Source of the DNA: Massilia frigida
GTDB lineage: Bacteria; Pseudomonadota; Gammaproteobacteria; Burkholderiales; Burkholderiaceae_D
Direction of reading: 5' to 3'
DNA: 64,000 nucleotides
Assembly (NCBI RefSeq): GCF_011682175.1
Contig: NZ_WHJG01000014.1
Span: 62,001 to 126,000 of the forward strand
Numbering within the stretch: position 1 is the first letter of the stretch; every line of letters starts with the position of its first letter. A program made the position numbers and the translations under genes. Below, one piece after another: positions 33,653 through 40,819 of the stretch. The notes beneath the pieces were generated by a model. It was not told where the DNA came from. It saw only the letters and a list, made by a program, of their open reading frames with translations, and searched no databases.

Positions 33653-34648
33653 TCAGGGTGCCGTCTCGCGCTCGCGCAGGAAGGCCGCGAACGGGTGGGC
33701 TGGCTGCTCCAGTTCGCCCGGCTCCAGCGCGAACAGTGCCCAGTAATAGGTGGTCTGGCCGCCCCGGCAGCGCTGCGCGGGCGCGGTCCAGCGGTGCCAG
33801 TTCTTGGCGAAATCGCGCGCATACATGCCGTCGCCCTCGCGAAAATACGGCACGATGCAGCGCTCGCGCACCGCCTGCAGGAACGACTGCGGCGCATCGT
33901 TGTCGCAACCGACCTCGTAGTGCGCGTTCATCCCGGCCTCGGTTTCGACCACCATCAGCTGGGCGCGTCCGCGCGCGTCGTACAGCAGGATGCCGGCCGG
34001 ATTCGGATACAGATAGTGTTCCACGATCCCGTGCTGCTCCACCACCATGCGCACCACCGCGGAAAACGCCGGGTCGCTCAGGAAGCTGTGGTTGTGCAGC
34101 TCCAGCAGGTCGCGCAGCGGGTCGGAGCGGGCGGCGAAATACGCCTGCTGGAGCGACACGATTTCGGCTTCGAGCTTGTCGAGCGCACCATCGTCGCTCT
34201 TTTTGATGTAACGGTCGATCAGGCCGCGGTTAAAGGCGTCGACCGCCACCTTTTCGTCGGCCACGCCGGTAAACAGGATCTTCTTGCAGGGCAGGTGGCG
34301 CAGCGCCTCGCACAGCTCCAGGCCATCCATCTGCGGCATCGAATAATCGACCACCACCACCGACGGCGTCATGAAGCGCTGCGGCTCGAAACTGATGCGG
34401 TGGATCTGGTCGATATCGAAGGCCACGTTGCAGCGCTCCGTCGAGCCGGGATAGGTATCGTAGCTGGCCGCCAGCCGGCCCGGCTGGCGTTCGCCGTGGG
34501 CGCCGATCCAGGCCAGCGCGCTGCTGGTGTCGGCAAAACATTTGCTGGCCAGGGCCGGGTCGAGCTGGAAGGCGACGCTTTTCAGGAAGCTGTCACTGTC
34601 GTCGATCAGGACGGTCAGGCTGGGATGGCTGTAAATCGGCAGGGGCAT
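33653..34648 (-). CDS. jqsR: LqsR/JqsR-like response regulator of the autoinducer locus
   Basis: A 331-residue protein starting at ATG 34648 with AAAGG upstream, 20 nt after the kinase stop. The receiver domain has the acidic pair Asp16-Asp17 (VLIDDSDS), phospho-acceptor Asp101 (VVVVDYSMPQMDG), Thr127 in LFTG and a Lys in RYIKK. An insert of about 45 residues separates the first two, as in LqsR. The C-terminal half (about 160-331) has no recognised DNA-binding domain. V. cholerae fuses a receiver to CqsS; here it is a separate protein, as in Legionella. Confidence 0.8.
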   Translation of the reverse strand: MPLPIYSHPSLTVLIDDSDSFLKSVAFQLDPALASKCFADTSSALAWIGAHGERQPGRLAASYDTYPGSTERCNVAFDIDQIHRISFEPQRFMTPSVVVVDYSMPQMDGLELCEALRHLPCKKILFTGVADEKVAVDAFNRGLIDRYIKKSDDGALDKLEAEIVSLQQAYFAARSDPLRDLLELHNHSFLSDPAFSAVVRMVVEQHGIVEHYLYPNPAGILLYDARGRAQLMVVETEAGMNAHYEVGCDNDAPQSFLQAVRERCIVPYFREGDGMYARDFAKNWHRWTAPAQRCRGGQTTYYWALFALEPGELEQPAHPFAAFLRERETAP

Positions 34649-34668: not shown

Positions 34669-35979
34669 TCAATGCGCGGGCGGCTCTGCGGCCACGCGCG
34701 GAAATTCGAGCACGAACATGGTGTAGCCACGCTCGCGCGACGTGCAGCGGATGCTGGCCTGCCAGGCATCGATGATGTCCTTGCACAGGGCCAGGCCGAT
34801 GCCGGCGCCGGAACTGGTTGGGTAGGAAAAGAAGCGCTGGAAGATCATCGGCAGCTGGCGCGCGGCGATGCCGCAGCCGGTATCGATCACCAGCAGGCGC
34901 GGCGTGTCGGGACGGCCGTCGACGACGATGCGGATGCGTCCCTTGCCGGCCCGGTGCAGCGCCTTGAGCGCGTTGCGCAGCAGGTTGAGCAAAACGACGA
35001 CCGACAGCTCGTGCTTGCCGGCGAAGCGGAAGTCGGCGCGGATGGCGACGCTGACCGCATCGCGCTGCGCTTGCGCGGCGAACGGATAGCGCCGGATCAC
35101 CGACTCGACCACCTCGCGCATCGATATCACCTCGCTCGCTTCGAGCTGCTGCTGGACCGCGCTGGCCGACAGCAGGAACAGGTCGATCATGTGGTTCATG
35201 TGGCGTACCTCGTACTGGATGCGCGCCATCGCTTCGCACATCGCCTGCCAGTCGGCCTCGCTGGCCTGGGCCGGCGGCGTGATGCGGCGGTAGATGCCGC
35301 GCACATTGGCCTCGACGCTGATCAGGGGCGTGCGCAGCTCGTGCGACACGCTGGCCAGGCCGTGCGCCACGCCGGCCAGCTTCGCGCGCGCCAGTGCCCC
35401 GCGCCCGGCCTTGGCCACCGACACGGCGACGATGGTGAAGGCGTAGATGGGCAGCTGTTCCAGCACCGTGGGGCTGAGCATGAAAGCCGGCTCGCCGACC
35501 AGCGCAAACAGGGCGCAGGCCAGCACGGTGCCGGTGGCGCAGGCGCTCAGCGCCAGGCGCGTGCGAAAGTGGAACAGCACCGTCAGCGCGATCAGCAGCG
35601 ACTGGCTCCACACGGCCGAACCGTGATTCATCAGGTACATGAAGGCGAACTGGAACGGCAGCACATAGGTCACCGCGATGAACAGATAGGCATGCACGAA
35701 ACGCCCGCGCAGCAGGCGCCCCGGGGCCAGCGCGGGCAGGCACAGGGCCGCGCCGATCAGGCGCAGGGCAAGGCTCTCGAACTCCTGCGGAAACCAGTAG
35801 GTCCAGATCGAATAATAGGCCGGCATGCCCAGGAAGCCGATCCATGCCAGCACGATGAAGGGTCCGGTCGCGTGGGCGTGGTGACGCTCGTTGTGCACCA
35901 GCCAGCGCAGCAGCCAATGCAGCACGAACTCGCGCAGACGGTCGGTGAAAAACGGGGCGGGGGCACTGGCAAACATCAT
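34669..35979 (-). CDS. jqsS: CqsS/LqsS/JqsS-like sensor histidine kinase
   Basis: A 436-residue membrane kinase. I start at ATG 35979; a more distant ATG (36069) would run into the promoter dyad. The sensor module has about six membrane helices, and its segment GFLGMPAYYSIWTYWFPQ closely matches the first CqsS helices, which read alpha-hydroxyketone signals. Then come the phospho-acceptor His213 in SVSHELRTPL, an N box (LLNLLRNALKALH), and G boxes (DTGCGIAARQL, GAGIGLALCKDI). Unlike V. cholerae CqsS there is no fused receiver. It lies 20 nt upstream of the receiver gene and divergent from the synthase gene. Confidence 0.85.
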   Translation of the reverse strand: MMFASAPAPFFTDRLREFVLHWLLRWLVHNERHHAHATGPFIVLAWIGFLGMPAYYSIWTYWFPQEFESLALRLIGAALCLPALAPGRLLRGRFVHAYLFIAVTYVLPFQFAFMYLMNHGSAVWSQSLLIALTVLFHFRTRLALSACATGTVLACALFALVGEPAFMLSPTVLEQLPIYAFTIVAVSVAKAGRGALARAKLAGVAHGLASVSHELRTPLISVEANVRGIYRRITPPAQASEADWQAMCEAMARIQYEVRHMNHMIDLFLLSASAVQQQLEASEVISMREVVESVIRRYPFAAQAQRDAVSVAIRADFRFAGKHELSVVVLLNLLRNALKALHRAGKGRIRIVVDGRPDTPRLLVIDTGCGIAARQLPMIFQRFFSYPTSSGAGIGLALCKDIIDAWQASIRCTSRERGYTMFVLEFPRVAAEPPAH

Positions 35980-36022: not shown

Positions 36023-36063
36023 CTTGACCTATGTTGATATTTTGCAATTTGATATATGTCAAG
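36023..36063. promoter_or_regulatory. Divergent promoter with inverted repeat, jqsS/jqsA
   Basis: An imperfect 41-bp dyad (arms CTTGAC 36023-36028 and GTCAAG 36058-36063, with further matches inward) lies between the divergent genes. On the minus strand it forms a good promoter: TTGACA (36057-36062), a 17-nt spacer and TATCAA (36034-36039). The plus-strand arm gives TTGACC at 36024-36029 without a strong -10. A shared regulator could bind the dyad; this is inferred. Confidence 0.55.
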
Positions 36064-36131
36064 CTCCATCGATGTTGCAGGAATGGCAAGGAAGGGCGGC
36101 ACAGAATGGATAATTTTTCCAAGGAGAATTC

Positions 36132-37376
36132 ATGTCTTTTGCTGCCGATCACATTTCGACTGCCGTGCGCGCCGAACTGGCCATGCCATCCTTCGTCACA
36201 GGCCGCATGGATGAGCATTACGTGACCCGCGTCGCGCAGTTGCTGGGCGGCGAGCATCTGCATGTCTGGACGCCACCCCAGCCCGACGCGATCATGTTGG
36301 CCAGCAACGACTACCTGTGCATTTCCGGCGAAGCGGCCTTGCTGGAGGCGCAGGCGCGCTGCCTCGTCACGAGCCGGGCGGGCATGCTGATGTCCTCCGT
36401 ATTCCTGCAAGAGGGCAGCGCCCAGCACCGGCTGGAAGCGAAGCTGGCGGCCTTCATGGGCGCCGAAGACGCGGTGCTGACCCAGTCCGGATGGGCCGCC
36501 AACGTCGGCCTGCTGCAAACCATCGCCGGGCCGGGGGTGCCGGTCTATCTCGACATGATGGCGCATGCCTCGCTGTGGGAAGGCGTGCAGTCGGCGCAGG
36601 CCACCGCGCTGCCGTTCCTGCACAACGACGCGGCGCACCTGGAGCGCCAGGTGCGCAAGCACGGTCCCGGCGTGATCGTGGTCGATGCGCTGTACAGCAC
36701 CAACGGCAGCGTCGCGCCGTTGGAACAGGTGGCGCGCATCGCCACCGGCAGCGGCAGCATCCTGGTGGTCGACGAATCGCATTCGCTCGGCACCCACGGC
36801 CCGCGCGGGGCCGGGCTGGTGGCGGCGCTGGCACTGGAGGGACAGGTGCACTTTCGCACCGCCTCGCTAGCCAAGTGCTTCGCCGGGCGGGCCGGCTTCA
36901 TTACCTGTTCCAGCCACTTCAAGGGCTACTTCCTGTCGGCCTCGCGCCCGGCGATCTTCAGCTCCTGCCTGCTGGAGCACGAACTGGCATGGTTCGATGC
37001 GGCGCTCGACTTCATCGCCGCCGCCGATGGCCGCCGCGCGGCGCTGGCCCGCGTCACGCGCACGGTGAGGGACGGCCTGCGTGCGTTGGGCTACAACGTC
37101 GACGACGGCAGCGAACAAATCGTCGCGCTCGAAGCGGGACCGGAACCGCGCACGCTGGCGCTGCGCAAGGCGCTGGAGCGGCGCGGCATCCACGGCGCCG
37201 TGTTCTGCGCGCCGGCCACCGCCAAGAACCGTTCGCTGGTGCGCCTCACGCTCAACAGCGGCCTGACAAGCGCCCAGTGCGCGCGCCTGCTCGACGCCTG
37301 CGCCGACATGCGTCCGGAGGTCGGGATGGACAGCTGGCCATCGACGCGCCGCCTGCGCCGCCTCACACTGGTCTGA
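36132..37376 (+). CDS. jqsA: CqsA/LqsA/JqsA-family autoinducer synthase
   Basis: A 414-residue PLP enzyme of the alpha-oxoamine synthase group with CqsA features. Such enzymes condense an acyl-CoA with an amino substrate to make alpha-amino- or alpha-hydroxyketone quorum signals (CAI-1, LAI-1 type). AAGGAG lies 6 nt before ATG 36132. Visible residues: Asp214 and His217 (LVVDESHSLG) and the PLP Lys248 in FRTASLAKCFAGRAGF. The N-terminal ASNDYL and GSAQHRLE motifs are conserved in CqsA. Genes for a CqsS-like kinase and a receiver lie divergently, which supports signalling rather than biotin or haem synthesis. The exact product cannot be read from sequence. Confidence 0.9.
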   Translation: MSFAADHISTAVRAELAMPSFVTGRMDEHYVTRVAQLLGGEHLHVWTPPQPDAIMLASNDYLCISGEAALLEAQARCLVTSRAGMLMSSVFLQEGSAQHRLEAKLAAFMGAEDAVLTQSGWAANVGLLQTIAGPGVPVYLDMMAHASLWEGVQSAQATALPFLHNDAAHLERQVRKHGPGVIVVDALYSTNGSVAPLEQVARIATGSGSILVVDESHSLGTHGPRGAGLVAALALEGQVHFRTASLAKCFAGRAGFITCSSHFKGYFLSASRPAIFSSCLLEHELAWFDAALDFIAAADGRRAALARVTRTVRDGLRALGYNVDDGSEQIVALEAGPEPRTLALRKALERRGIHGAVFCAPATAKNRSLVRLTLNSGLTSAQCARLLDACADMRPEVGMDSWPSTRRLRRLTLV

Positions 37377-37408: not shown

Positions 37409-37798
37409 ATGAGTGAACCACAAACCCTGTATGACGTCATCGGTGGCGAAGCGCGCGTGCGCGAGATGGTCGACCGCTTCTACGACCTGATGGAGCTGGA
37501 GCCCGAGTTTGCCGGCATCCGCGCGCTGCATCCGCCGTCGATGGACGGCTCGCGCGACAAGCTGTTCATGTTCCTGAGCGGCTGGATGGGCGGGCCCGAC
37601 CTGTTCGTCGAACAGTACGGCCATCCGCGCCTGCGCGCGCGCCACCTGCCGTTTGCCATCGGCGGCAGCGAGCGCGATCAGTGGCTGCGCGCCATGGCAT
37701 GGGCGATGGAAGATATCGGCATCGATGAAGCGCTGCGCCTGCGCCTGATGGAGTCGTTCTACCAGACCGCCGACTGGATGCGCAACCAGCCCGGTTGA
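37409..37798 (+). CDS. Group II truncated haemoglobin
   Basis: A 129-residue globin of the trHbO type. It shows the B-helix DRFYDLMELEPEF, the CD/E region FMFLSGWMGGPDLFVEQYG, the proximal His in RARHLPF and the G8 Trp in QWLRAMAW typical of group II. It may bind O2, NO or peroxide. It begins 33 nt after the synthase gene, in the same direction, so it may be co-expressed with the quorum signal synthase. It ends 4 nt before rmuC. Confidence 0.9.
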   Translation: MSEPQTLYDVIGGEARVREMVDRFYDLMELEPEFAGIRALHPPSMDGSRDKLFMFLSGWMGGPDLFVEQYGHPRLRARHLPFAIGGSERDQWLRAMAWAMEDIGIDEALRLRLMESFYQTADWMRNQPG

Positions 37799-39321: not shown

Positions 39322-39537
39322 GCTACAGCGGCGACGAAGGCTACAGCGACGAGAAAGGCTACAGCGGCGACACAGGCTAAAGCAGCGACGAAGGCTAAAG
39401 CAGCGACGAAGGCTACAGCAGCGACGAAGGCTACAGCAGCGACGAAGGCTACAGCAGCGACAAAGGCTACAGCAGCGACAAAGGCTACAGCAGCGACAAA
39501 GGCTACAGCGGCGACGAAGGCTACAGCGGCGACAACG
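39322..39537. repeat. Minisatellite, 12 units of 18 nt
   Basis: Twelve head-to-tail copies of an 18-nt unit with consensus GCTACAGCAGCGACGAAG. Copies 4-5 carry GCTAAAG and copies 8-10 carry GACAAAG, suggesting local homogenisation. The last unit (39520-39537) overlaps the stop and final codons of the minus-strand PEP-CTERM gene. There are no unique spacers, so it is not a CRISPR array. Confidence 0.9.
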
Positions 39538-40399: not shown

Positions 40400-40819
40400 G
40401 ATCTCTGACCAAATTGGTTAGGTAGAGATTGATATTAGCAAGTGAGCCAGTCCGTTCTCTCATAAAACCTAACGATCAGGGTGATAGTAAATTACTATCA
40501 ATGATGCTTTTAAAGCATTCCTCCTATGAGAACTCCGTAGAAAATGCAGCAATAAATAGACAAGCTAGGGCAAAATGGAGTGAATAAAAAACAACGATAT
40601 TGCCATAAAAATCACAATTGAATGGATTTCAAAGATGATTTTCATATCATTACTGATGTTTTATACCTCATTGCATAACGTGAGTTGAAGGAAATGTGTG
40701 ACTATTTATGAGACCTTGAAACATTGCTCCTTACTTCCGCAGCCCTGGAATACAGTGGCCAGGCACGCGTGAACCAGCCATGTCACGCCCAGGCGTAACG
40801 CGCGCCGGCCTGTCACTAC
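40400..40819. other. AT-rich gap between two PEP-CTERM genes with paired dyads
   Basis: 420 nt, much AT-richer than the window. It contains two adjacent perfect palindromes: 9-1-9 (TGATAGTAA A TTACTATCA, 40482-40500) and 7-1-7 (ATGCTTT T AAAGCAT, 40504-40518), about 83-120 nt upstream of the MHFG PEP-CTERM start. They could be operator sites or a bidirectional terminator. The rest shows no gene. Confidence 0.55.

Follow-up and report, generated by a model that had tools for sequence, protein, structure and literature searches.

A JQS-type quorum-sensing locus in Massilia frigida and the box upstream of its synthase gene

Which protein carries the output of an alpha-hydroxyketone quorum-sensing system to its target promoters? 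The question is raised by a locus of Massilia frigida lying in a window of 64,000 nucleotides, the whole stretch of DNA analysed here (contig NZ_WHJG01000014.1, positions 62,001 to 126,000), in which an autoinducer synthase gene, jqsA, adjoins the genes of a sensor kinase, jqsS, and a response regulator, jqsR. Judged by their sequences, these genes very probably constitute a JQS (Lqs-type) alpha-hydroxyketone quorum-sensing system. The locus itself is ordinary, of a well-conserved kind that has been described before in violet bacteria of soil and water, and the window adds one more member. The part worth testing is the FNR-type reading of the box TTGA-N6-TCAA, known as the JAI-1 motif, that precedes jqsA. 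In this tentative reading, to which a probability of about 0.4 is assigned, the box would be of the FNR/CRP type, the missing factor would belong to the FNR family, JqsR would act indirectly, and signal production, together with the neighbouring globin gene, would be tied to oxygen. If this is true, cell density and oxygen would be read at one promoter, and the output step can be put to the test with two or three genes already identified in the genome.

The box upstream of jqsA and its candidate reader

The JAI-1 motif, TTGAN6/7TCAA, has already been reported upstream of jqsA (PMC5080296; each paper is cited here for the part of its text that was available). Its conservation has been followed in 47 upstream regions of 260 bp, namely that of the window and those of L001 to L047 except L046, which belong to a set of 48 loci of close relatives obtained by a JqsA scan of named genomes; L048 was not used, since its best match starts inside the gene, two sites lying further up. 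An exact N6 box is found in 41 of these regions, the window included, and two boxes in 26, where first-order Markov resampling predicts 0.35 regions with a box and reached a maximum of 4 in 300 runs. The arms are constant and the spacer is variable across the jqsA upstream regions, the pattern of a site for a dimeric regulator. Boxes also occur in pairs, with a distance of exactly 66 bp in loci of Janthinobacterium, Rugamonas and Duganella (L014, L015, L019, L024, L034, L038 and others) and 47, 60 or 61 bp apart in Massilia; L047 has a complete second box at an offset of 15 bp, that of the imperfect TTGATATTTTGCAA in the window.

The box of FNR, ANR and FixK is TTGATN4ATCAA, and Hem, Cco, Usp and OmpW genes are usual targets of FNR and ANR. 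The box of the window has the same arms and the same spacing, the ends of its spacer being T5 and G10 rather than T5 and A10. The spacing of the box matters: the M. frigida genome contains 122 copies of TTGA-N6-TCAA (24 for the reversed control, a pattern that may differ in codon fit), 36 copies of the N7 form (control 9) and 79 of the N5 form (control 56). Among the 45 of the 122 sites that were examined with a simple purpose-made gene caller, 34 are intergenic, the non-coding share of the window being 13 percent; 25 of the 45 have a predicted start within 350 bp, the other 9 called intergenic having a start farther away or none, and 13 have the full TTGATN4ATCAA form. Copy number was dropped as proof of a regulon, because in G123, a genome of genus g6, 21 of 30 examined copies lie inside genes and because of the doubt about the control; for the same reasons, the intergenic share in the M. 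frigida genome is relied upon instead of the control ratio. In genus g6, six genomes (G005, G048, G092, G109, G123 and G136) contain 258 to 461 copies of TTGAN6TCAA for 22 to 29 of the reversed control.

Apart from jqsA and jqsS, 31 predicted genes flank the examined intergenic sites, and 20 of them were chosen for comparison with Pfam. Those that fit an FNR regulon encode HemN, two Usp proteins (uspA), OmpW, a PAS-type chemoreceptor, a CoA ligase, a short-chain dehydrogenase and a PHB-depolymerase-type esterase. The others encode MFS and EamA transporters, CsgE, a PilM-like protein, a sigma-70 factor, a pseudouridine synthase, a protein with an AAA domain and a PRC-barrel protein, a gene of this last kind also appearing in the published JAI-1 list (PMC5080296). 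One box precedes ccoN (COX1), with FixO next, and was counted as intragenic because the predicted frame overruns the site; another lies 439 bp upstream of the fnr gene of the genome, whose product passes its NCBIfam cut-off (263 over 228). From the sequence, the odds that FNR binds the predicted box between jqsS and jqsA appear about even. A second exact copy of TTGATATATGTCAA, 46 kb away, overlaps the start predicted for an EamA transporter gene (L074 1501-1514, G000:C55:51878).

The route from LqsR-family regulators to their target genes is said to await investigation (PMC10653808). In JqsR, fold comparison of the modelled output domain with the PDB found no DNA-binding fold: for the domain modelled alone, with a predicted local distance difference test score (pLDDT) of 83.1, the sole match under E 0.001 is the Legionella LqsR structure 6sy9, and the next stands at 0.098. 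A resemblance to kinases, at E 0.098 and above, was judged to be noise. Since no DNA-binding fold is recognisable in this domain, the reading of target promoters most likely falls to a separate transcription factor. From its family and active site, JqsA would join an acyl-CoA and an amino-acid-derived unit into a signal of the alpha-hydroxyketone type; by analogy with LqsS and LqsR, the membrane kinase JqsS would sense this signal and set the phosphorylation of JqsR at Asp101; and an FNR-type protein is the most likely candidate for direct control of jqsA through the box.

The name JAI-1 motif implies another explanation, a dedicated quorum-sensing box read by JqsR or by a JQS-specific factor. 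The presence of the box before jqsA in 41 of 47 regions agrees with it, as does genus g6, in which jqsA is present and the motif abundant (109 to 461 copies) in all seven sampled genomes. Such a box is nevertheless difficult to reconcile with an output domain for which only 6sy9 is matched, and with the genome of M. frigida, where the box precedes genes of FNR type and is missing within 0.78 kb of vioA. Outside genus g6, moreover, the abundance of the motif does not follow JQS. Over 145 genomes of the family, the median ratio of motif to control is 3.5 in the 116 without jqsA and 4.1 in the 29 with it (p 0.08); when the seven g6 genomes are left out, the ratio in the remaining 22 with jqsA is also 3.5 (p 0.91). 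A dedicated box is thus considered rather unlikely.

The FNR-type reading has its own difficulties, to which the association of jqsA with motif-rich genomes in genus g6 belongs. In the published work, the motif is linked with JAI-1 signalling. The window site TTGATATATGTCAA is not of the full TTGAT-N4-ATCAA form, and 19 of 69 sites at jqsA have G at position 5, unlike the textbook FNR box. The exact N6 box is missing in six of the 47 regions (L020, L022, L025, L028, L042 and L045) and in all six g28 loci of the family sample. Many of the scanned genes that flank boxes are untypical FNR targets, 4 of the 20 having no family, and inspection by eye upstream of jqsA found no convincing -10 hexamer at class II spacing.

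The main text of the paper that named the motif (PMC5080296) contains no word beginning with fnr, crp or anr, and among the papers listed none equates the JAI-1 motif with the FNR box in its title or the start of its abstract. In the same paper, a 49-bp deletion holding the motif lowered vioA promoter activity by 75-90 percent, and loss of jqsA lowered it two-fold. The stronger effect of the deletion is expected if the reader of the box answers to more than JQS.

Besides FNR, the M. frigida genome encodes FNR-like and Dnr-like proteins that share the E-x-x-S-R pattern of its FNR. The FNR-like protein, at C177, is without the N-terminal cysteine cluster present in FNR. Its homologues (E 1e-30 or better) occur in 127 of the 145 family genomes, with or without JQS, which rules it out as a JQS-specific factor. 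Among the 29 genomes with jqsA, the box and a close C177 homologue (E below 1e-90) are both present in 19, the box alone in 1, the homologue alone in 2 and neither in 7 (Fisher p 1.7e-4, hand count). Little weight is given to this association, because few clades carry the pattern and six of the seven genomes with neither belong to one genus.

Regulator, kinase and synthase

Table 1. Features of the JQS locus, with positions in the window
Feature	Position	Strand	Description
jqsR	33653-34648	-	LqsR-family response regulator, 331 aa, Asp101 in VVVVDYSMP; output domain ~184-331
jqsS	34669-35979	-	Membrane sensor histidine kinase, 436 aa, His213 in SHELRTP
Imperfect second box TTGATATTTTGCAA	36034-36047		Starts 15 bp before the first box; read by eye
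Predicted JAI-1 / FNR-type box TTGATATATGTCAA	36049-36062		TTGA-N6-TCAA; centre 76 nt before the jqsA start
jqsA	36132-37376	+	PLP (pyridoxal phosphate)-dependent alpha-hydroxyketone autoinducer synthase, 414 aa, Lys248 in SLAKCF
Truncated (bacterial-like) globin gene	37409-37798	+	Bac_globin PF01152, E 5.6e-41

A preliminary description of this DNA had presented the locus as a self-contained signalling system of the CqsA/LqsA/JqsA type with a split receiver. The system as such is upheld by the family score of the synthase, its position in a tree and the conservation of its neighbours. The span assigned to it, 36023-37376, covers the synthase and the intergenic region and leaves the kinase and the regulator outside, to the left; Lys248, Asp101 and the sensor motif GFLGMPAYYSIWTYWFPQ (JqsS residues 48-65) are all located where they had been placed. 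The term split receiver proves misleading, because JqsR matches LqsR across both receiver and output domain. JqsR carries a Response_reg domain (Pfam) and is aligned by sequence with 6sy9 at E 3e-44, over residues 13-315 of a translated stretch of 342 residues. The structure predicted for it (mean pLDDT 86.0) resembles 6sy9 with E 3.1e-28, and receivers and other response regulators make up most of the remaining fold matches among the best 50 of 1335.

Rather than a fragment detached from CqsS, JqsR is a regulator of the LqsR family that has an output domain of its own; a regulator of this family is considered ancestral to the Lqs system (PMC10653808). It is highly improbable that JqsR is a detached CqsS receiver domain feeding a phosphorelay of the LuxU/LuxO kind. 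A split origin has been speculated upon (PMC3376566), and a kinase with a fused receiver does exist in the family (L143, among the loci of the class genomes, 749 aa, HATPase_c then Response_reg), but the homology of JqsR to LqsR extends over receiver and output domain and therefore leaves no broken-off CqsS receiver.

JqsS, whose 5′ end shows two consecutive ATG codons, contains HATPase_c above its Pfam cut-off and HisKA below it. It ends after HATPase_c with no receiver domain, which confirms that the layout is unlike the fused receiver of V. cholerae. It may carry the CqsS-like sensor that had been proposed for it. About six hydrophobic segments precede His213 in the hydropathy profile (merged by eye from 11 overlapping windows), and residues P53, Y56, W59, P64 and Q65 of the sensor motif do not vary across 35 aligned JqsS proteins; no sensor-specific profile was found in NCBIfam, where the matches are generic kinases and LuxN.

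JqsA scores 536.6 bits against NF005526, the NCBIfam model of alpha-hydroxyketone-type autoinducer synthases (cut-off 428). Its closest solved structure is V. cholerae CqsA, 2wk8 (E 5.7e-103, 348 bits), and the best match other than CqsA is a KBL chain with 134 bits. In an alignment read by hand, Lys236 of CqsA corresponds to Lys248 of JqsA. Also by hand, seven of the nine published acyl-pocket residues of CqsA (list from PMC3285556) are kept, V32 being replaced by His44 and F257 by Ser269. The chain length of the signal is not read off these residues, because V. harveyi CqsA has all nine and prefers C8 nonetheless (PMC3285556).

In a tree of 38 proteins, JqsA stands among synthases of Massilia, Duganella, Rugamonas and Janthinobacterium and is separated at 100/100 from three paralogues of its own genome, a split that recurs with cleaner outgroup rows; the program warned of long outgroup branches, and CqsA and the named LqsA are not among the rows. 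Two of the paralogues are KBL (594 over a cut-off of 493) and BioF (427.3 over 426.45) by NCBIfam, and the third is below every cut-off of the families listed. The preliminary description had proposed such a tree as a check, and JqsA groups with neither BioF nor KBL. That the synthase is a metabolic enzyme of the BioF/KBL type beside unrelated two-component genes can be practically dismissed: although JqsA has the PLP fold in common with these enzymes and reaches 225 bits with the bioF model, it misses the bioF cut-off (426), passes that of NF005526, coexists with a separate KBL and BioF from which the tree splits it, and keeps its cluster in 48/48 loci. The cluster is not due to chance, because this family score is above cut-off and homologues of jqsS and jqsR stand beside jqsA in all these loci.

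Related systems, distribution and neighbouring genes

The likeness to the Legionella lqs and Janthinobacterium jqs loci that had been pointed out is supported by the match to LqsR and by the jqs cluster published for Janthinobacterium sp. HH01. In that strain, as here, three adjacent genes, TTGAN6TCAA before jqsA and violacein genes are described (PMC3566124, PMC5080296). The globin gene directly follows jqsA in the window, whereas nine Janthinobacterium loci have it at a distance of about 2.3 kb. Massilia antarctica P8398 likewise has jqsS and jqsR in one operon, a separate jqsA and vioABCDE, and its description shows no departure from the window in these genes (PMC9028926). Legionella, with lqsA-lqsR-hdeD-lqsS, shares the LqsR-type regulator with its own output domain; its gene order differs, and only the Legionella cluster is said to contain hdeD (available part of PMC3376566). 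The Vibrio CqsA/CqsS system shares the synthase family and the kind of sensor kinase, but CqsS carries a receiver (PMC3376566), unlike JqsS, and the V. cholerae cluster, according to the part of PMC3566124 available, has no LqsR homologue, whereas the window cluster has JqsR.

As to possible targets, a violacein cluster is present at C133 (L097 4681-13012), followed by an MFS transporter gene. VioB (1856 bits) and VioE (E 7.7e-100) are recognised, as are, from their Pfam matches and position, VioA- and VioC-like flavoenzymes; the open reading frame in the place of vioD gave no Pfam match at 1e-5. No N6 or N7 site, with up to one mismatch, was found within 0.78 kb upstream of vioA, and the nearest exact site is 1.7 kb upstream. 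The genome thus differs from the strains of PMC5080296 in having no box near vioA, and the quorum-sensing control of vio inferred for M. antarctica (PMC9028926) is not supported here. Control of the PEP-CTERM genes by the locus, suggested earlier, finds nothing in its favour except a single site with N7 spacing, at 40618.

Homologues of jqsS and jqsR adjoin jqsA in 48/48 named loci; by coordinates, jqsS and jqsA are divergent in 47 and convergent in L046. With the window genome counted, the synthase (E 1e-80 or better) occurs in 29/145 genomes of the family and in 9/369 of the class. All 29 family loci have a jqsS homologue next to the synthase, divergent in 28, jqsR lying outside the short loci cut from these genomes. 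In L048 (Massilia sp. H-1, CP087969), jqsA, jqsS and jqsR match only partly in one frame, which could reflect broken genes or errors in the record.

In the window, jqsS and jqsR, both on the minus strand, are 20 bp apart, and 152 bp separate jqsS from the divergent jqsA. A frequent block reads ada - FtsX-type permease - jqsR - jqsS - jqsA - globin - rmuC, the permease homologue flanking the cluster in 36 of the 48 loci and the globin homologue in 37. The globin gene, on the same strand, is separated by 32 bp from jqsA before it and by 4 bp from rmuC behind it, and starts at most 600 bp after jqsA in 24 of the 46 loci with room downstream; it may be co-transcribed with jqsA. Between rmuC and a PEP-CTERM gene, an 18-bp tandem repeat occupies positions 39322-39533 of the window, with 11.8 copies and 92 percent matches.
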